A DNA stretch of 64,000 nt from Vulcanimicrobiota bacterium (GTDB taxonomy: Bacteria > Vulcanimicrobiota > JAJTBE01): positions 1-64,000 of the forward strand of contig JAIORV010000110.1 of NCBI GenBank assembly GCA_021107945.1. The letters run 5' to 3'. Below, piece after piece: positions 17,400 through 31,468 of the stretch. The translations under genes were made by a program, and so were the position numbers. Position 1 is the stretch's first letter. Each line of letters begins with the position of its first letter. The notes beneath the pieces are model-generated. The model worked only from the letters and a program-made list of their open reading frames with translations. It was not told where the DNA came from and did not search any database.

Positions 17400-20057
17400 T
17401 TAAAGGGCGGATTTCTCATCAATAATCCTCACTATCCCCGCCGAGCCGTCAACTTCTACAATTTGTCCGTCTTTGAGAAGGTTTGTTACATTTTCGATCC
17501 CTACTACACAGGGCTTTCCATATTCTCTTGCCACCAGAGAACCATGCTGCAGCATTCCTCCCACTTCAAGAACGATTGCTACGGCGTTTATGAAAAGCGG
17601 TGTCCAACCGGGATCCGTTGCCCTTGCAACCAGAACATCGCCTGGAAGCACAGGCTTCTCATCGGGCGTATGAAGAACTTTTACCGGTCCCCGCACGACA
17701 CCCGACGAAATAGCCTGCCCCTGAAGCTCGCCTTCCTTTGTTTCCCTCTTTGGCGCCCGGAGTATTTTTCCCCTTGAATCTATCAAATGGGGGAAGCTCT
17801 TTACATGCTTTAACTCCTTGTAGAATTCTGTGTTTTTCTCTCCGATCGCTCGAAGATCCATTGACGGATCCTTAATTCCCTCATCAACCTGCTCAATCGT
17901 CAGGTCAAACACCTGCTCCTTGTTATCAAGTCGTCCCTGTTTCACAAGCTTTTCAGCCTCTTTTAGAATATGTTCTCTTAAAATATGATTGAGCATGATT
18001 AAGAAATATTTATGCGTCTCCCTGTAGCCTCCGAATGATTCTATCAGGCGATACAGCATATGAAACTCCTTGCTCTTTAACCATCCTTTTTTATGCGCCG
18101 CCTCCGCAAGGATCTCAAATGCTTTATGTCTCTCCATCTGGGATTTCTCGTATATGGCCTGTGGATTATTCTCCGGATCTTTGACCCCCACAAGGTTTGC
18201 CATCTGCTCGATAATGAACTTTGGATTGTCAACATACCTTGGTGATGCGATATCCAGCTCTTTTGCCCCCCTGAATCCATATTTCTCCATAGATTCATCC
18301 CATGCATGCATAAAATTGCCCGGCATATCCCTATGTTCAATCTTATCCACCAATTCGTCAATAGATTTATATTCCTCAGGCTCCAGGAGTTGTGACAGGT
18401 GATAGAGGGCAAGCCCCATTTCCACCGTAACATTCCCCTTCAACGATCTGTCAAGGTAATCGAGCTGTCCTTTTATTTCAGGGGGATCATCCTCAAAAAT
18501 CGTCTTTATTTTTGACTCGGCTAACTGTGCTGATAAGAGTGTGGGTAAAATTATATGTATAATCATATGCGAGGTCTTACTTGTAGCCGTTTTTGTCAAC
18601 TCCATTATCGGAAGATCGCTTGCCGCCGCCACTTTCATCTCAGCAATATGTTTATCAATTCCCCTTTGAAAAAATGAAGTCAACTGCTCCGGTAAAACGG
18701 CGGCTTCAAATACTCGAGCGATTGTATCGGGAATATGAGTCAGAACCTTTAAGCTCACGTTCTTTAACTTATCGGGGCATTTCATTGTTTTATATTCTTC
18801 CTCATCCACTCCCTTAATTATATTGGAAGCTAACGAATCCATCCGCTCAATTCCCCTCGCCAGGCTCTCTTTATTTGCCAGAAGGAACATGTTGGAATAA
18901 TTTATATATGAGCGTCCCCCGGTGTTATACAGCAGTCCTGATTCGATATCCGATGTGAGATCAACACCAAAAACTTCAATCGTGAAATCTTTTAAGAAAA
19001 GGTGAAGCCAGGACAATCCCATTACGGATAAGGGATCACGAATTCCCTGGATACAAAGAGTCATATCCATATAAAGCCTCTTGCGCTTACCCGGAGGTGT
19101 GATAATTTCCGGCGGTAAGGGAATATGTGTTGTTATGGGTCTTGCCTGCAGCATATAGAGGTGCCCCCCGGAGAACGCCCATTCCGTGTCCATGGGCTTT
19201 CCGTAATACTCCTCAATTTCATTTAATACACCCGTCAGCTCCACAACCTGCTTATCAGACAATGTAAGAGTGGAGTGCCTGGAGTCAGGTCTTTCGACGG
19301 TTCCTCCGCCGGGTGTAAGCCATACTGAGGTCTCTTTTTTGCCGATCGTCTTGTTCAGAATAACCATCTTAACCTTGTCAACGATATATTGATCAGGGGA
19401 TGCCATTCCCGACACAACCGATTCGCCCTGTCCCCAGTTCGCATTAATAACGGCCTCATCATAGCAGTTATTGAGCGGATTCAGCGTGAAGCCCACCCCG
19501 GCAACATCGCTTGCAACCTGCTCCTGCACAATCACTGCAATACGGGGATCATCAACAGAGAAGCCATGCTCGCGTTTGTAAATGAAAACTCTCTGGTCAA
19601 GGCATGATGCAAAAGTTGTTCGTATTGCATCTTCAATTGTTTCAGGCGTAACGCCGAGGACTGTTTCATAACCTCCTGCAAAAGATGCTCCTTCGAGGTC
19701 TTCCTGGGGAGATGAGGATCGAACTGCAAAAAGCCTGCCTTTCCCTTTCTCTTCAAGAATTTCGAGATAATCTTTGAGAGCTTTCTTTTGAAATTCATTA
19801 AGTTCAAGAGAGGAGCAAATATTTTTAAGCTCTCTTGATTTTGTTGCCAATTCTTCTTCCTGAGCGTTTATGAAGTTCTCCCATTGGGGATGCTTTCTTA
19901 ACTCTTCCAGCCAGGGTTTGAAATATTCCACCGTAAGAACAAAACCGTCAGGCACGGGCAACCCATGCCTTGCCATTTTAATAAGCGAAAGTCCCTTTCC
20001 ACCAACTTCCTTTAATGTAGGTTCATCATTCCCCTTGAAAGAATATATGATTTTCAT
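17400..20057 (-). CDS. PEP synthase-like / rifampin phosphotransferase-like protein
   Basis: The 885-residue protein has an N-terminal ATP-grasp PEP/pyruvate-binding domain (GGKGLSLIKM, AVRSSSPQEDLEGASFAGGYET, EQVASDVAGVGFTLNP, LQARPITT up to ~315), a middle helical region and a C-terminal swivelling phosphohistidine domain (VARATDPGWTPLF...GGMLQHGSLVAREYGKPCVVG). The His in LQHGS is the phospho-carrier position. The three-module order without a PEP-binding TIM barrel, and the size near 870, fit rifampin phosphotransferase and its many uncharacterised relatives better than true PEP synthase. It probably moves a phosphate from ATP to a small acceptor through the His; the acceptor cannot be predicted. 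It is transcribed divergently from the signalling island. Confidence 0.85.
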   Translation of the reverse strand: MKIIYSFKGNDEPTLKEVGGKGLSLIKMARHGLPVPDGFVLTVEYFKPWLEELRKHPQWENFINAQEEELATKSRELKNICSSLELNEFQKKALKDYLEILEEKGKGRLFAVRSSSPQEDLEGASFAGGYETVLGVTPETIEDAIRTTFASCLDQRVFIYKREHGFSVDDPRIAVIVQEQVASDVAGVGFTLNPLNNCYDEAVINANWGQGESVVSGMASPDQYIVDKVKMVILNKTIGKKETSVWLTPGGGTVERPDSRHSTLTLSDKQVVELTGVLNEIEEYYGKPMDTEWAFSGGHLYMLQARPITTHIPLPPEIITPPGKRKRLYMDMTLCIQGIRDPLSVMGLSWLHLFLKDFTIEVFGVDLTSDIESGLLYNTGGRSYINYSNMFLLANKESLARGIERMDSLASNIIKGVDEEEYKTMKCPDKLKNVSLKVLTHIPDTIARVFEAAVLPEQLTSFFQRGIDKHIAEMKVAAASDLPIMELTKTATSKTSHMIIHIILPTLLSAQLAESKIKTIFEDDPPEIKGQLDYLDRSLKGNVTVEMGLALYHLSQLLEPEEYKSIDELVDKIEHRDMPGNFMHAWDESMEKYGFRGAKELDIASPRYVDNPKFIIEQMANLVGVKDPENNPQAIYEKSQMERHKAFEILAEAAHKKGWLKSKEFHMLYRLIESFGGYRETHKYFLIMLNHILREHILKEAEKLVKQGRLDNKEQVFDLTIEQVDEGIKDPSMDLRAIGEKNTEFYKELKHVKSFPHLIDSRGKILRAPKRETKEGELQGQAISSGVVRGPVKVLHTPDEKPVLPGDVLVARATDPGWTPLFINAVAIVLEVGGMLQHGSLVAREYGKPCVVGIENVTNLLKDGQIVEVDGSAGIVRIIDEKSAL

Positions 20058-24317: not shown

Positions 24318-26354
24318 ATGGACAAAGGTGAAGTCAAAATTCTTGTAGCTGACGATAACCCGGATATTTTGAAATTAATTGACTTGAACCTGAAATATGA
24401 GGGTTATAAGACCATAACAGCGAAAGACGGTGAAAAGGCATTAGGTCTTGCAAGGAAGCACAAGCCTGACCTTATAATTCTTGATATACTAATGCCTGTG
24501 ATGGATGGGTGGCAGGTGCTTTCAAACCTCAAGAACTCCGAGGAAACGGAGAACATTCCCGTTATCATGCTCACCGGGTTATCAATGAAAGAGGGGAAAG
24601 AAAGAGGCTTGATCGAGGGAGTCGAAGATTTCCTTAGTAAGCCTTTTAATCCACTTAGATTATTAGAGATCGTCGAAGATATAATTTCCCGGTATAAAGT
24701 TATTGCTCTTCCGCAAGCTCTATATTTCAAAAACATAAAAATAGGCTTGATAGGAGAGGGGAAATTAATTGTCGATATGGCAAGAGCTCTTATGGGATCA
24801 CCCAAAATCGAATTGCTTGCTTTTTATTATAACGGGGAAAATGGATCTTCAACAAGTATTCTTGAAAAGCTGAAAGTGCCTATGGTAGAATCACCCCTGG
24901 AAATGTTGGAAGTTCCCGGTATTGAATTAATTATTGATACATGCCAGACTATAGAACAGGATCTTATTAATAAATCAAAAGAAAAAGAAATCGACATTCT
25001 TTCCGGGGTCCCTGTTCATTTAGTTCTCACACTCCTGGAAGACCAGCAAACAACACGCATAAAAGAAAAATCACTTGTAAAAGAATTGAACACACGGGTC
25101 AAAGAGCTTTCACTATTAAATGAAATGTCACAGATTCTCACTTCACCGCTGAACCTATGGCTATTACTCGACAAAATAGCCCGGTTGGCCACCAAAATAA
25201 GTAAGGTTGATGCCTGCGCAATCCTCATGTATAACGAGGAGCAGGAGAAATTTATTGTTTCCAATACATTAGGACTTTCCGATTCATTTAAGGAAAACGT
25301 GAAATTATCCCTTTTCGATTCAATAATCGAGGAGATGATGACACTTAATCGCCCCCTTGTAGTAACAAATCTGGACAAATTGGGCATATCGCCTCTCATC
25401 AAAGAATCATTTCGTGAGGGCATGAAAAATATGGTTGCAGTTCCTTTACCTTCCAAGGGAAAGTTGATGGCTATTATTGCCATATATTCAAAGGAAAACA
25501 GGGAACTGCCTAAAGAAGCAATGGGGCTACTAACCATCCTGGCGGGACAGGCTGGAATATCGATTGAAAACGCCGATCTTTACGAAAGTACCCATCAGAA
25601 ACAACAGCTTGTGGAGCAACTACTGGGGAAAGTGATTCAGGCTCAGGAAGAAGAGCGAAAGAGAATAGCGGCGGAGCTGCATGATACAATAGCTCAGTCA
25701 CTGGTGGGGATACTAACAAAAGTGCAGACCTGTCAATTGCTAATGAAGAAGGACCCTTCACAGGTTCTTGGAAAATTAGAGGAGTTAAAAAATGTTGTCG
25801 GTGATAATGTAAAAGAAGTACGCCAGATAATATTCAACTTACGCCCGTCCTCTCTTGATGACCTGGGATTGGTTCCATCACTGGAAAATTACATCAAGAG
25901 ATTTGAAAAAGAGCATAATATTCATGTCGAATTTCGAATTAACAACAGGGAAAGAAGACTCCCCACAACAGTTGAGACTGCAGTTTTTCGAATAATACAG
26001 GAAGCACTCACCAATGTGAGGAAACATTCAAATGCTGACAAAACCCTTGTCAGACTAACTTTTCAACCTAAAATACTCAGCCTGCGCATTGCCGACAATG
26101 GAGAAGGGTTTGAGTGGGAAGAAGTTACGGAGAGGTTTATGAAGGGGCATTCCCATGGAATTCAGGGAATGAAAGAAAGAGTATCCGTACTTGGAGGAAC
26201 TTTCAAAATCACTACTGAAAAAGGAAAAGGATGCGTAGTAAACGCCCAGGTACCAATATATCGGAAAAAAGAAAAATCAACCAGGAAAACCATGAATCGT
26301 ATTTTTCGGGGAGACCGGAGACCGGAAGTCGGAGGTCGGATGACGGATAATTGA
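24318..26354 (+). CDS. Hybrid NarL-type histidine kinase (REC, Rossmann-like, GAF, HisKA_3)
   Basis: The 678-residue kinase begins with a receiver domain (VADDN, phospho-Asp in ILDILMP, Lys in SKPF; 1-125), followed by a Rossmann-like stretch (~140-235, KIGLIGEGKLI...IELIIDTCQ) resembling NAD-binding or metabolite-sensing folds, a coiled coil, a GAF domain (~290-435), a HisKA_3 dimerisation helix with phospho-acceptor His in AAELHDTIAQSL, and a HATPase (EALTNVRKH, ADNGEGF, GIQGMKERV). All catalytic boxes are intact. The response regulator whose gene overlaps its stop is the likely partner. The C-terminal ~20 residues (GDRRPEVGGRMTDN) are coded by GGAGGTCGG repeats. Confidence 0.93.
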   Translation: MDKGEVKILVADDNPDILKLIDLNLKYEGYKTITAKDGEKALGLARKHKPDLIILDILMPVMDGWQVLSNLKNSEETENIPVIMLTGLSMKEGKERGLIEGVEDFLSKPFNPLRLLEIVEDIISRYKVIALPQALYFKNIKIGLIGEGKLIVDMARALMGSPKIELLAFYYNGENGSSTSILEKLKVPMVESPLEMLEVPGIELIIDTCQTIEQDLINKSKEKEIDILSGVPVHLVLTLLEDQQTTRIKEKSLVKELNTRVKELSLLNEMSQILTSPLNLWLLLDKIARLATKISKVDACAILMYNEEQEKFIVSNTLGLSDSFKENVKLSLFDSIIEEMMTLNRPLVVTNLDKLGISPLIKESFREGMKNMVAVPLPSKGKLMAIIAIYSKENRELPKEAMGLLTILAGQAGISIENADLYESTHQKQQLVEQLLGKVIQAQEEERKRIAAELHDTIAQSLVGILTKVQTCQLLMKKDPSQVLGKLEELKNVVGDNVKEVRQIIFNLRPSSLDDLGLVPSLENYIKRFEKEHNIHVEFRINNRERRLPTTVETAVFRIIQEALTNVRKHSNADKTLVRLTFQPKILSLRIADNGEGFEWEEVTERFMKGHSHGIQGMKERVSVLGGTFKITTEKGKGCVVNAQVPIYRKKEKSTRKTMNRIFRGDRRPEVGGRMTDN

Positions 26355-26444
26355 TGACGGAAAACGGAGGTCGGAGGTTAGAGGTCGGAGGTCGGATGAT
26401 GGAGGACGGATCCCGTTTCCCGTTTCCCGTTTCCCGTTTCCCGC
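26308..26444. repeat. GGAGGTCGGATGACGG / CCCGTTTC simple repeat tract
   Basis: This tract repeats GGAGGTCGGA and GGATGACGGA words and then four tandem CCCGTTT units. It forms the end of the kinase reading frame and the beginning of the longest reading frame of the NarL regulator. Reverse-oriented relatives occur at 45297-45450, and forward relatives at 34725-34745. Confidence 0.85.
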
Positions 26445-26476
26445 TTCTCACTTCCAAAAGGAAAGGGGAATCTAAC

Positions 26477-27148
26477 TTGAAAAAAGAAGAAAACATTAGA
26501 ATATTGCTTGTAGATGATCACAACCTCGTGAGAGAGGGATTTTCACAGATGTTGGAACTTGAAGAGGATTTCATCGTTGCCGGTCAAGCTGCAAACGCGG
26601 ATGAAGCATTGGAGAAAGCCCTCGAGCTGAAACCCGATGTGATTTTAATGGATATAAAGCTTCCCGGCATAAATGGAATAGAAGCCACCAGGATGATAAA
26701 AAGTAAGCTTCCGGAGACTGAGATAATGATTCTCTCGATGTATGACGAAGAGGAGTATGTGAGAGAGGCTGTAAGAGCCGGTGCAACGGGCTATGTTTTA
26801 AAAGACATTTCGCAGGAAGACCTGATAAGAAATATTCGGGTACTGAATTCAGGAGGCTCATATATCCAACCTTCTCTTGCCCGAAAAGTTCTTCAGGATA
26901 TTGCATCGATGGGAAAGGCAAAAATTCAGACTTCATCAAGAAGCTCAAGTATCAGGGAACTCTCTGACAGAGAGATTGAAGTCCTGCAACATGTCGCAGA
27001 TGGGAAATCCAACAAGGAAGTTGCAAAGGCGTTAATTATTAGTGAAAAGACCGTAAAAGCTCATTTGCGCTCAATATTCCGAAAATTGGAAGTGGGAGAT
27101 CGGGCACAGGCGGTTGCCACGGCAATGAGGAAAGGACTTGTAGAATAG
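26477..27148 (+). CDS. NarL/FixJ-family response regulator
   Basis: From the TTG at 26477 the product is 223 residues, the normal size for this family: a receiver domain (VDDH, phospho-Asp in ILMDIKLP, Lys in VLKD) and a LuxR-type helix-turn-helix (LSDREIEVLQHVADGKSNKEVAKAL...EKTVKAHLRSIFRKL). The frame remains open upstream to 26351, but that stretch is a simple repeat; AGGGG lies nine bases before the TTG. It should be phosphorylated by the HisKA_3 kinase just upstream and act as a transcription factor. It ends 15 bp before a terminator-like hairpin that belongs to an opposing riboswitch. Confidence 0.95.
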   Translation: MKKEENIRILLVDDHNLVREGFSQMLELEEDFIVAGQAANADEALEKALELKPDVILMDIKLPGINGIEATRMIKSKLPETEIMILSMYDEEEYVREAVRAGATGYVLKDISQEDLIRNIRVLNSGGSYIQPSLARKVLQDIASMGKAKIQTSSRSSSIRELSDREIEVLQHVADGKSNKEVAKALIISEKTVKAHLRSIFRKLEVGDRAQAVATAMRKGLVE

Positions 27149-27162
27149 TCCGAAATAAATAA

Positions 27163-27180
27163 TCCCGGAAAATTCCGGGA
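27163..27180 (-). terminator. Intrinsic terminator after the TPP aptamer
   Basis: TCCCGGA (27163-27169) and TCCGGGA (27174-27180) form a seven-bp GC-rich stem with a four-base loop. On the minus strand it is followed by TTATTTATTT, a good intrinsic terminator. It begins seven bases after the aptamer, the usual layout of a transcription-attenuating riboswitch. On the plus strand no T-run follows, although the hairpin lies 15 bp beyond the NarL stop. Confidence 0.8.
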
Positions 27181-27186
27181 TAGCAA

Positions 27187-27275
27187 TTCCCTTCGCCGGT
27201 ATGAACCGGATCAAGTTATAGGGGTCGGTGACTGATCACGCCGCCTTCTCAGCTGGATACTACCAACTCCCCCAT
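27187..27275 (-). promoter_or_regulatory. Orphan TPP riboswitch (THI element)
   Basis: Read on the minus strand the segment has every conserved block of the TPP aptamer in order: GGGGGAGT, CCAGCTGAGA, a variable P3 arm, GACCCC, then TTGATCCGGTTCATACCGG and CGAAGGGAA. The pairing of GGGGG with ACCCC and of CCGG with CCGG is as in known THI elements. It should bind thiamine pyrophosphate and switch the adjacent terminator. Remarkably, the sequence downstream on this strand is the antisense of the NarL regulator and kinase; no thiamine gene is there. Confidence 0.92.
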
Positions 27276-27285
27276 TGCCACGCCA

Positions 27286-27313
27286 ATTATAACACATTCC
27301 CCAAAAATGTCAA
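27286..27313 (-). promoter_or_regulatory. Consensus sigma-70 promoter driving the TPP riboswitch
   Basis: On the minus strand both boxes are perfect: TTGACA (27308-27313), 16 bp spacer, TATAAT (27286-27291). The start of transcription would be near 27279, a few bases before the aptamer. It points away from the hybrid kinase gene starting at 27341. Confidence 0.88.
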
Positions 27314-27340: not shown

Positions 27341-29038
27341 GTGACCGAAAATAAAAAGAGGACAAACAGGAAAGCAATTATTGAAGAATATGCTCTTTTG
27401 AGGGAAATCGCAGGTTCGGCGTTGTTCTTCTCAAACATCCCGGAGTATTCCACACTGGTTGAAGAAAAGCTTAAAATACTCTCGGGTTGGGATATGGTAA
27501 GGATTATAGAGCACAGTATATCAAGAGGTTGTTTTATCAGTCGCGATATACGGGCTCCATTTATGGAAAATAGGAATATGGATTTTTTTTCACCGAACTC
27601 GCCGGTAATTCAAGAAGTTAAAAGCTCCGAGAACATTGTTACTATAAAGCTTGACGCTGCAGAAATAAAATCCAGGTATGAAAAGAAACTTATAAAAAAT
27701 GGATTTAAATATGCATATCTTACCCCCATTGGAGTAAGAAACAAGTTTGTCGGCGTTCTTGCCGCATTTTCAAAAAATGAAGAGCCGGCAGACGATATTG
27801 ACCTGTCATTGTTGAGCCTGACCAGTGAGATCCTGGCGCTTTCACAGGAGATGTATTTCAACTCCAAAAAGCTTTGCGATTTTGAAAAAGTGGTTGACAA
27901 TTATGAAAATGCCCGTATAGAGTTGGAATCGGCCAAAATATTGGAAGAGCTCAGCTCGGGAATTGTGTTTAAATCTAATAATCTTCTAGCAGGCATCCTG
28001 GGATATATTGATCTCTTCGAAAAAAATACCGGGGATATGGATTCACAAAGTCTGTTCAAACAAATAAAAAGAGCATCTGTTTCAATCAGCGAAACCGTAG
28101 CTACTCTCCAGGAATTGAGAAAACTGGGTGCAAGACAAGATCCATGTCCGTTGGATATTAATAGGCTTATCAAGAGAGTGATAGAACTGACAAAGCCGAA
28201 GTGGAAAGACGAATCCTGGGCAAGAAATATCGAATATAAATTAGAAGTTGACTTACGCCCGTTACACTTTATATCGGGAAATTCCTCCAGACTGATGGAA
28301 GCGTTAATTATCATACTGTTTCAAGCAATTGAGAGCATTCCCCGGGGAGGAAGAATTATTATAGAGAGCCAAGGTAATGAAGACGAAGTTGTTTTATCTT
28401 TCCATGCAATTCAGGAATCAGGGCTTCAATCGGGACTGACCATTTTCGATCCGTTCCTACAGGATAGAGCCGGCCCTAAAATCGGCCCTGATATTGAAGT
28501 TGCCCGCAAAATTATGAAGAGACACAATGGACAACTCCTGGTGGAAAGCAAAATTGGCAGGGGCAATATTATAACCATCAAATTGCCTGTGACAAAGGAT
28601 GAAATATTAATAAAGGAATATAGTGAAGGGACTCTGAAGGAAACCGGAACTCTTCTTGTAGTTGAAGACGAGCAGATTGTAAGAGAACTTCTACGGGATA
28701 AGCTTAAATCCGAGGGTTTCAAAGTAACAGTGGCGGAAAACGGACAGGAAGCATTGAATTACTTGAGAGAAAAAGAATTTGATCTCCTGTTGACCGATCT
28801 GGGAATGCCCGGAATGTCCGGGAATCAACTCTCGGTCGAAGCGAAAGAATTGTGGCCTGATATGCCGATTATTCTGGCCACGGGATGGGAATCAAGGATA
28901 GACAGGAATAAATTGAAGGAATATAAAATCGATTATGTCGTTGGAAAACCTTTCCAATTCAATGAAATTATAAATGTGATACTGGAATCTCTCATAAAAA
29001 GGCGAGAACTAAAAAAGAATGACCGCAAAATTGATTGA
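27341..29038 (+). CDS. Kinase-dead hybrid histidine kinase with C-terminal receiver
   Basis: The 565-residue protein has a GAF-like sensory region (~20-175), a HisKA-like helix, a HATPase-like region and an intact receiver (VEDE, phospho-Asp486 in LLTDLGMP, Lys in GKPF). The kinase core is degenerate: the phospho-acceptor His is Phe210 (GIVFKSNNLL where GVAHEFNNLL is usual), both Asn of the N-box are replaced (IILFQA for NLLxNA) and no G1 DxGxG is visible. It cannot be a normal autokinase and may be a scaffold, or a receiver controlled by another kinase. GTG 27341 has GGAAGGAG upstream. It follows the riboswitch on the same strand as the preceding signalling genes. Confidence 0.88.
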   Translation: MTENKKRTNRKAIIEEYALLREIAGSALFFSNIPEYSTLVEEKLKILSGWDMVRIIEHSISRGCFISRDIRAPFMENRNMDFFSPNSPVIQEVKSSENIVTIKLDAAEIKSRYEKKLIKNGFKYAYLTPIGVRNKFVGVLAAFSKNEEPADDIDLSLLSLTSEILALSQEMYFNSKKLCDFEKVVDNYENARIELESAKILEELSSGIVFKSNNLLAGILGYIDLFEKNTGDMDSQSLFKQIKRASVSISETVATLQELRKLGARQDPCPLDINRLIKRVIELTKPKWKDESWARNIEYKLEVDLRPLHFISGNSSRLMEALIIILFQAIESIPRGGRIIIESQGNEDEVVLSFHAIQESGLQSGLTIFDPFLQDRAGPKIGPDIEVARKIMKRHNGQLLVESKIGRGNIITIKLPVTKDEILIKEYSEGTLKETGTLLVVEDEQIVRELLRDKLKSEGFKVTVAENGQEALNYLREKEFDLLLTDLGMPGMSGNQLSVEAKELWPDMPIILATGWESRIDRNKLKEYKIDYVVGKPFQFNEIINVILESLIKRRELKKNDRKID

Positions 29039-29533: not shown

Positions 29534-31468
29534 TCACAAATCACACTTGCCCCCATCACTCGGCATCTCCATGTCCATATCCGGGGTGTACCTGCAATAA
29601 ATAAGGTGGATCCTCTTTCTTTCAGCCATCAAAACAATATCACGAAGCTGATTATCGTTTCTTGCATTCATCCACTGTTTCTCAAAACTTTCATCTGTGG
29701 TTATCTCCGCTATGGAAGCAAGAGCCCTGATATAAAAAGCCCTCTCATCCTTTGAGCCGATTAAGACAAAAACCATGTTAACCGCTGGAAGCTCAGAATG
29801 AAATTTAATACCATCCTTACACCTTGCAATAAGCATGTCAAATTTTCCCTCTCCCCTGATTATCACATGAGGAATTGCTATACCTCTTCTGAGTACCGTG
29901 GTGGATTCCGACTCTCTCTCAATAAATTCCCGAAAAAGAGTTTTACTGCTCACATCCAGGTTTTTTGCCAATTTATCTGATACCAACTCAAAGAATTCGT
30001 CCAATTCAAGTTTTCCCTGAACATCCAATATCTGGCAGTTCTTTACGATATAATCAAAACGGTCTTCTACTATCTGATCCCTCTCCCTTACTATCTCTTT
30101 TAGTTCAGAAGCCAGAGCCGCGCCTCCCAGAGGCCGGTCCGAGTCCGCATCGGTAAGATTCTGAACCATCTGAGTGAGAGCGGAACGGCGGGTGACCTGG
30201 ATCCGGGTATAGAGCAAGTACCATCCAAGCCCGAGCACCATAAAACCTACCGAAAGCATTATTGGCTTCATTCCCATCAGAAAAAGCAAGTAACCGTATG
30301 CAAGTATCCCGGCAATATGGACATAGGGATAAAAAGGTGACTTGAAACCAGGCCTGTAATTGAGAATCTTACTCTCCCTCATTACAATAACTGCAGTGGT
30401 TACCAGAGCAAATATTATTAATTGAATTGCCGAGGCGGTCTTTACAAGCAGCTCAATGTCCAGGAAGAGAATCATGGCTATCATAAACCCGACTGTAAAA
30501 ATAAGGGAAATATGGGGGGTTCCAAATTTTTTATTTGTAGTCTGGAGAAGACCGGGGATATGACCGTCCCTGCTCATGGCGATGGGATAACGGGAAGCGG
30601 CCATTATCCCGGCATTTGCGGTGGTCATAAATGCCAACATTGCCGCAACTATTATCGCAATAATACCAATCGGCCCCAGAAAGTTTTTTGCCGCAAGGCT
30701 TATGGGCGTGAGTGAACCCGAAAGATCAGCGGCAGGTGTGACGCCTATTGTAACAAATATGACCAGTGCATACAAAACCATCACTACAGCATATGCTGAA
30801 AACATAGCACGCGGCAAATCCTTGCATGGATCCTTCACTTCCTCGGAAATACTACATATCTTGGTCAAGCCTGCATAGGAGATAAAAATCATTCCCGTGG
30901 CTTTTAGTATTGATTTTATTCCCCCCTGAGCAAAAGGTTGAAAATTGTGAGGATTAACGTTAAAGACTCCCCTGGCAATGAAATAAATAAGTATTCCTAT
31001 AAGGCCGAACACAAGGAAAACCTGGAATTTACTGGCGATTTTGACACCGATAAGGTTGACAACAAAAAATATCAAACAAAAAGCAATTGCAATTATCTTT
31101 ATATGAACAATGTTTATGCTATTCTCCAGGAGCACCGCTATGGAGCCTATACCAATAAGAGCGAAAGCACTCTTCAGACTCAAAGCGAACCATGAATTAA
31201 TGCCCCCTATTGTTCCTGCCGCCGGTCCCAGGCTCCTGTCTATAAAAAAGTAATCTCCCCCGGCCCTGGGCATTGCGGTTGCAAGCTCGGCTTTTGAGAG
31301 CAACGCCGGGATATAAAGAACACCTGCAATTATATATGCCAGGACTATTGCAGGACCTGCAATTTTAAATACTATCCCCGGAAGCACAAATAGCCCTGAT
31401 GATATCATCGCACCGGATGCAATGCAAAATAAGTCCAGATGAGACAGGTCCCTCTTCAAAACCGCCAT
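29534..31468 (-). CDS. APC-superfamily permease fused to a PTS EIIA-type domain
   Basis: The 644-residue protein begins with twelve-segment APC transporter sequence (SGAMISSGLFVLPG near residue 18, then GGDYFFIDRSLGP) ending near 425, followed by a linker and a C-terminal ~150-residue PTS EIIA (fructose/PtsN-type) domain with FIERESESTTVLRRGIAIPH; the IPH His is the phospho-site of that family. Transporter-EIIA fusions are thought to couple amino-acid transport to PTS phosphorylation or to other signals. It is convergent with the GNAT-like gene. AGGTAAATAA lies before the ATG. Substrate not predictable; an amino acid is likely. Confidence 0.92.
   Translation of the reverse strand: MAVLKRDLSHLDLFCIASGAMISSGLFVLPGIVFKIAGPAIVLAYIIAGVLYIPALLSKAELATAMPRAGGDYFFIDRSLGPAAGTIGGINSWFALSLKSAFALIGIGSIAVLLENSINIVHIKIIAIAFCLIFFVVNLIGVKIASKFQVFLVFGLIGILIYFIARGVFNVNPHNFQPFAQGGIKSILKATGMIFISYAGLTKICSISEEVKDPCKDLPRAMFSAYAVVMVLYALVIFVTIGVTPAADLSGSLTPISLAAKNFLGPIGIIAIIVAAMLAFMTTANAGIMAASRYPIAMSRDGHIPGLLQTTNKKFGTPHISLIFTVGFMIAMILFLDIELLVKTASAIQLIIFALVTTAVIVMRESKILNYRPGFKSPFYPYVHIAGILAYGYLLFLMGMKPIMLSVGFMVLGLGWYLLYTRIQVTRRSALTQMVQNLTDADSDRPLGGAALASELKEIVRERDQIVEDRFDYIVKNCQILDVQGKLELDEFFELVSDKLAKNLDVSSKTLFREFIERESESTTVLRRGIAIPHVIIRGEGKFDMLIARCKDGIKFHSELPAVNMVFVLIGSKDERAFYIRALASIAEITTDESFEKQWMNARNDNQLRDIVLMAERKRIHLIYCRYTPDMDMEMPSDGGKCDL

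Follow-up and report, generated by a model that had tools for sequence, protein, structure and literature searches.

A TPP riboswitch aptamer with its own promoter and terminator-like hairpin faces a response regulator gene in a Vulcanimicrobiota bacterium

Genes and features at the locus

The window, the 64,000-nucleotide stretch of Vulcanimicrobiota DNA analyzed in this work, includes on its minus strand a promoter, a TPP aptamer and a hairpin with a T-rich tail, all packed into 162 bases next to genes of two-component systems. The features are as follows.

27286 to 27313, minus strand: sigma-70-type promoter, TTGACA-16-TATAAT with TG before the -10 hexamer (12 of 12 positions match)
27171 to 27283, minus strand: TPP riboswitch aptamer, a full-length RF00059 match with the core helices and the CUGAGA box all present
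27152 to 27181, minus strand: intrinsic-terminator-like hairpin (8 bp, 27181-27162) and T-rich tail, from sequence and folding
26351 to 27148, plus strand: NarL/LuxR-type response regulator (PF00072 and PF00196), convergent with the element
24318 to 26354, plus strand: partner kinase directly upstream of the response regulator, with matches to receiver, GAF, HisKA_3 and HATPase domains
27341 to 29038, plus strand: hybrid kinase-like gene, with a receiver domain and a HATPase match below cut-off

The element (27283-27152) stands in antisense-convergent orientation to the response regulator gene, the conserved part of which encompasses nucleotides 26474-27148 and closes with the stop codon at 27146-27148. 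As an earlier note on this DNA had described, the minus-strand sequence downstream of the element is antisense first to the regulator gene and then to the kinase gene and includes no thi gene; nothing else is carried by this strand until the next sizeable gene, which begins 7 kb away at 20057. The classic cis arrangement, in which the aptamer precedes a gene for thiamine synthesis or transport on its own strand, was not found at this element. The hybrid kinase-like gene is divergent from the element and located on its promoter side, not downstream of it. The window also includes, at 29534-31468 on the minus strand, a gene for a fusion of an amino-acid permease (PF13520) with a PTS EIIA domain (PF00359).

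A covariance-model search of the window, the check that the earlier note had proposed for its TPP aptamer, matched RF00059 over the full model with 67.3 bits and an E value of 4.6e-11. This score lies above the gathering score of 54.3, the match is on the minus strand, and the bounds of 27163-27313 given in the same note proved correct to within a few bases. The ligand-pocket bases listed as highly conserved in TPP aptamers (PMC3764141) are J3-2 UGAGA, P4 U59/A80, G60 and C77-G78; in the alignment all of them are present in the window aptamer. The RNA would be expected to bind TPP. In the genome, which has 5.56 Mb and is 98.6% complete, this is the sole RF00059 match, and no further copy of the cassette of promoter, aptamer and hairpin was found in the rest of it.

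The promoter with its 16-bp spacer and the intrinsic terminator with a T-run had also been recognized previously from the sequence, and both were recovered. Transcription is predicted to start at P1 of the aptamer or immediately before it. The hairpin, ATCCCGGAATTTTCCGGGAT, is followed by the tail TATTTATTTC, which ends 3 bases short of the response regulator stop codon, the hairpin stem itself ending 13 bp short of it. Since a shuffled version of the 601-bp stretch examined would contain about 0.8 promoter-like and about 0.8 terminator-like sites, the weight of the promoter comes from its perfect score and its position and not from the count. The locus is thus that of a real TPP aptamer with a promoter and a terminator-like hairpin, and without a thi gene. 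Contamination is improbable, given that the element is embedded in a 68-kb contig and was found again in a second, independent genome.

Thiamine genes and TPP aptamers in the phylum

Neither ThiC (PF01964) nor ThiE (PF02581) was found in the genome that includes the window (G000, family f1), in searches that detected the two proteins in 13 and 11, respectively, of 14 control genomes. On the other hand, a thiamine pyrophosphokinase is encoded on contig C82 and a ThiT-type transporter, for thiamine uptake, at C31:52388-52870, both contigs being distinct from that of the element. The absence of the former two proteins and the presence of the latter two indicate that the organism is probably a thiamine scavenger. 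No TPP aptamer was found in the stretches around thiT and the thiamine pyrophosphokinase gene. ThiT-type genes adjoin the thiamine pyrophosphokinase gene in genomes G002 and G030 (L168 and L171), with no TPP aptamer in the stretches searched.

A TPP aptamer is present in 109 of 149 genomes of the phylum. At the loci examined in families f9, f14 and f16 the aptamer is located directly before thiC. ThiC was not detected in G000, in G017 (family f12), in G002 (family f3) or in any f13 genome searched, and these four families nonetheless keep a TPP aptamer, in no case before a thi gene. The aptamers of G000 and G017 both face the response regulator gene. That of G002 (L037, 2744-2851, plus strand) is followed by a hairpin and by genes for the ATPase and permease of an ABC-2 type transporter, possibly an unrecognized TPP-controlled transporter. 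In seven f13 genomes (G024, G019, G036, G030, G022, G040 and G034; L002-L008) P1 is closely or directly followed by a T-run, and the aptamer itself may act as a terminator; downstream are found a conserved protein of about 140 amino acids without assigned function and then a coiled-coil protein, and no thi gene. The 140-amino-acid protein was considered as the missing target of the element and discarded, its homologs in G000 and G017 being located elsewhere.

Conservation of the element in a second family

G017, a genome of a different family in the phylum, includes an aptamer (62.0 bits with RF00059) that is convergent with the orthologous response regulator gene, the two regulator proteins being 67% identical. 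The kinase gene and a roadblock-domain gene are found upstream of the regulator in the same order as in the window. The promoter, TTTACA-16-TATAAT, matches at 11 of 12 positions with the same spacing and again has TG before the -10 hexamer; the hairpin has 5 pairs and a modest T-run, and its stem ends 7 bp before the response regulator stop codon, compared to 13 bp in the window. The hybrid kinase gene is not conserved beside this second element, and the gene on the promoter side encodes instead a putative HNH-type protein. This difference indicates that the conserved unit consists of the element and the response regulator rather than a long block. The G017 aptamer (L017, 1501-1614) has CUGAAA in place of CUGAGA, with A substituting for G42, a normally invariant ligand-pocket base; the substitution puts its ligand affinity or specificity in doubt and makes this aptamer a possible case of changed ligand specificity.

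The two aptamers agree at 62 of the 93 model positions compared, namely at 33 of 41 strongly conserved positions and 29 of 52 others. All 21 core pairs of P1-P5 examined are standard in both, with differences at 14 of the 42 paired bases, and six pairs are changed on both sides. Random substitutions kept all 21 pairs in 0.08% of trials when placed at the same sites and in none of 100,000 trials when placed at random paired sites. The test draws on two sequences and covers neither P3a, an optional stem in which one pair is broken in each aptamer, nor the non-canonical pairs 16-49 and 64-83. Because the response regulator proteins are just 67% identical, an intergenic RNA structure that was not under selection should not have survived this divergence.

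Orthologs of the response regulator are found in 12 other genomes of the phylum with 60-68% identity. The element is absent from 11 of the 13 genomes that have the regulator, with orthologs of 60-67% identity in these 11, and the regulator therefore does not need it. No thi gene was found between the element and the regulator in the 11 orthologous loci, and an RF00059 scan of 20 further response regulator loci in relatives revealed no arrangement with a thi gene. The suggestion in the earlier note that a regulated thi gene had been deleted is accordingly disfavored: the same cassette faces the same regulator in G017 with no thi gene, and no relative has one intervening. The attempts at a tree did not settle whether G000 and G017 are sisters, one of the trees consisting of four rows in which the grouping is uninformative, and the element could have arisen either by one gain followed by losses or by two gains. 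In G002 a selenocysteine tRNA gene (L046, 1388-1478) is located directly after the orthologous regulator gene on the opposite strand, so that another RNA gene holds the slot that the TPP element has in the window.

Possible roles of the element

We consider an antisense-acting TPP riboswitch on the kinase-regulator operon the best reading of this locus, and hold it tentatively, at somewhat less than an even chance. RNA polymerase would start at about 27280 on the minus strand, synthesize the aptamer, and then either stop at the hairpin just before the regulator stop codon, releasing an RNA of about 125 nt, or read through into an RNA antisense to the regulator and kinase genes. This antisense RNA would lower expression of the regulator and kinase by polymerase collision or duplex formation, and TPP would set the balance between termination and read-through. 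The element, its promoter and hairpin, its position, its conservation in two families and the absence of ThiC and ThiE are observed; transcription, TPP binding, the antisense effect and the direction of that effect are inferred. We know of no link between this kinase-regulator system and thiamine.

Folding predictions differ between the two cases. The 3' strand of P1 doubles in G017 as the 5' arm of the hairpin, so that the two structures exclude each other. Since the ligand stabilizes P1, bound TPP should favor read-through, with more antisense RNA and less regulator as a consequence. In the window the upper pairs of the hairpin form with a probability near 1 whether or not the aptamer forms, and the hairpin competes with an extended P1 only at its base, in two pairs (27181-27180). 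A hairpin predicted with or without the aptamer offers no clear switching platform, a strong TPP switch is not evident in these predictions, and TPP could act in this direction only weakly, as so few pairs compete. The earlier note had proposed, as the alternative to deletion, an antisense transcript controlled by TPP or a small RNA acting in trans. Such a role is better supported than deletion; control of an antisense transcript by TPP is a supposition, as the window terminator is predicted to form regardless.

The same folding lends weight to a viable but less probable alternative, in which the element specifies a short small RNA that binds TPP, is constitutively terminated and works either in trans, through base-pairing or by binding a protein in the manner of SreA or EutX/Rli55, or by binding the 3' region of the regulator mRNA, read-through having no part. 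The promoter, aptamer and terminator of the window do compose a closed unit of about 125 nt with a terminator that forms independently of the aptamer, and any message extending from the regulator gene into 27341-29038 would be complementary to the RNA over its full length. However, the overlap of terminator and P1 in G017 is more easily reconciled with a switch than with a fixed small-RNA gene, and no separate effector domain is found besides the aptamer and the hairpin. Pairing with the start region of thiT was not above background in G000 or G017, which is weak evidence, as thiT was the sole target tried in this crude duplex test and the program ignored internal structure and gave unrealistically long duplexes. 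It is very improbable that the element is an ordinary cis riboswitch preceding an unrecognized short gene on the minus strand; open reading frames do exist antisense to the regulator (26571-26948 in the window and 1693-1974 in L017), but they have no evident resemblance by eye between the two genomes, start far downstream, and lie opposite a conserved gene whose codons explain them.

That the element is a functionless relic of a riboswitch that once led a thiamine gene, since deleted, appears improbable to us. Loss of the thiamine pathway would orphan elements of this kind, and the absence of ThiC from G000, G017, G002 and all f13 genomes searched, when relatives of the f9 type have the aptamer before thiC, counts in favor of this possibility. 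A relic would nevertheless decay, and here promoter, aptamer and hairpin are intact in both families, with compensatory changes; the retention of 21 pairs despite 14 paired-base differences and six double changes strongly disfavors the relic of a recent deletion. The spacing of 7-13 bp to the regulator stop codon in both genomes would require one old deletion followed by long preservation, and there is no room for a thi remnant between hairpin and regulator gene. The proximity of the hairpin to the stop codon, within a few bases in both genomes, would also suit a boundary that halts antisense transcription at that point, with the aptamer incidental. This we judge quite improbable, since it leaves the preserved TPP aptamer unexplained, the hairpin lacks a T-run on the regulator strand and so is not a typical terminator for the regulator message, and most orthologs of the regulator manage without the element.

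Antisense action of riboswitches has been shown before for two ligands. A SAM riboswitch antisense to ubiG-mccB-mccA in Clostridium acetobutylicum was shown by experiment (PMC9943018), and a B12 riboswitch, that of AspocR, is antisense to pocR in Listeria monocytogenes (PMC8079631, PMC9943018). As in AspocR, an aptamer for a vitamin cofactor has its own promoter and faces the 3' end of the gene of a transcription regulator in convergent orientation, a terminator lying between them. The ligand class differs (B12 there and TPP here), as does the target, here a two-component response regulator without known link to the ligand; the Listeria ligand causes termination, whereas the anatomy of the G017 element suggests that the ligand hinders it. 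The C. acetobutylicum riboswitch is likewise convergent at the 3' end of an operon, but the operon is metabolic, with a clear relation to the ligand, and the case is experimental, unlike that of the window. A survey counted 1,185 predicted antisense cases before species filtering, 83 of them TPP riboswitches, and judged 292 biologically meaningful; in its account TPP is among the commonest classes predicted to face transcription-regulator genes, and the class is not enriched for antisense position (83 antisense vs 9,766 sense, P = 1.00) (PMC9943018). These TPP cases share with the window element the class, the antisense position and the kind of target; as reported there they are predictions in KEGG genomes (PMC9943018), whereas the window element was tested for conservation across two families.

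EutX and Rli55, B12 riboswitch-controlled RNAs that sequester the RNA-binding ANTAR response regulator EutV (PMC7602753, PMC8079631), also couple a vitamin riboswitch to a two-component response regulator. They carry ANTAR sites in the RNA; the window aptamer has no such downstream domain, and its response regulator is a DNA-binding protein of the LuxR type (PF00196). The domain search found no ANTAR match in the regulator, which has a LuxR-type (GerE) DNA-binding domain, and sequestration of this kind therefore does not apply to the window. By its position and conservation the element is a probable member of the known kind of antisense-acting riboswitches and not a categorically new one.

A wider scenario, which we regard as doubtful, is that the lineage lost ThiC and its TPP riboswitches became detached from thiamine genes, the one described here having become an antisense brake that responds to TPP and acts on a two-component system. 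Bound TPP would promote read-through, switching the antisense RNA in the ON direction, and would thereby tie the output of the regulator to scavenged vitamin B1. Should the antisense-acting TPP riboswitch function in the proposed way, it would be the first TPP case of this kind for which conservation across families gives support. A lineage without ThiC-based thiamine synthesis would then keep TPP sensing for signaling and not for thiamine genes, and the orphan TPP aptamers of f1, f12, f3 and f13, none of them beside a thi gene, make the question of TPP sensing directly testable.
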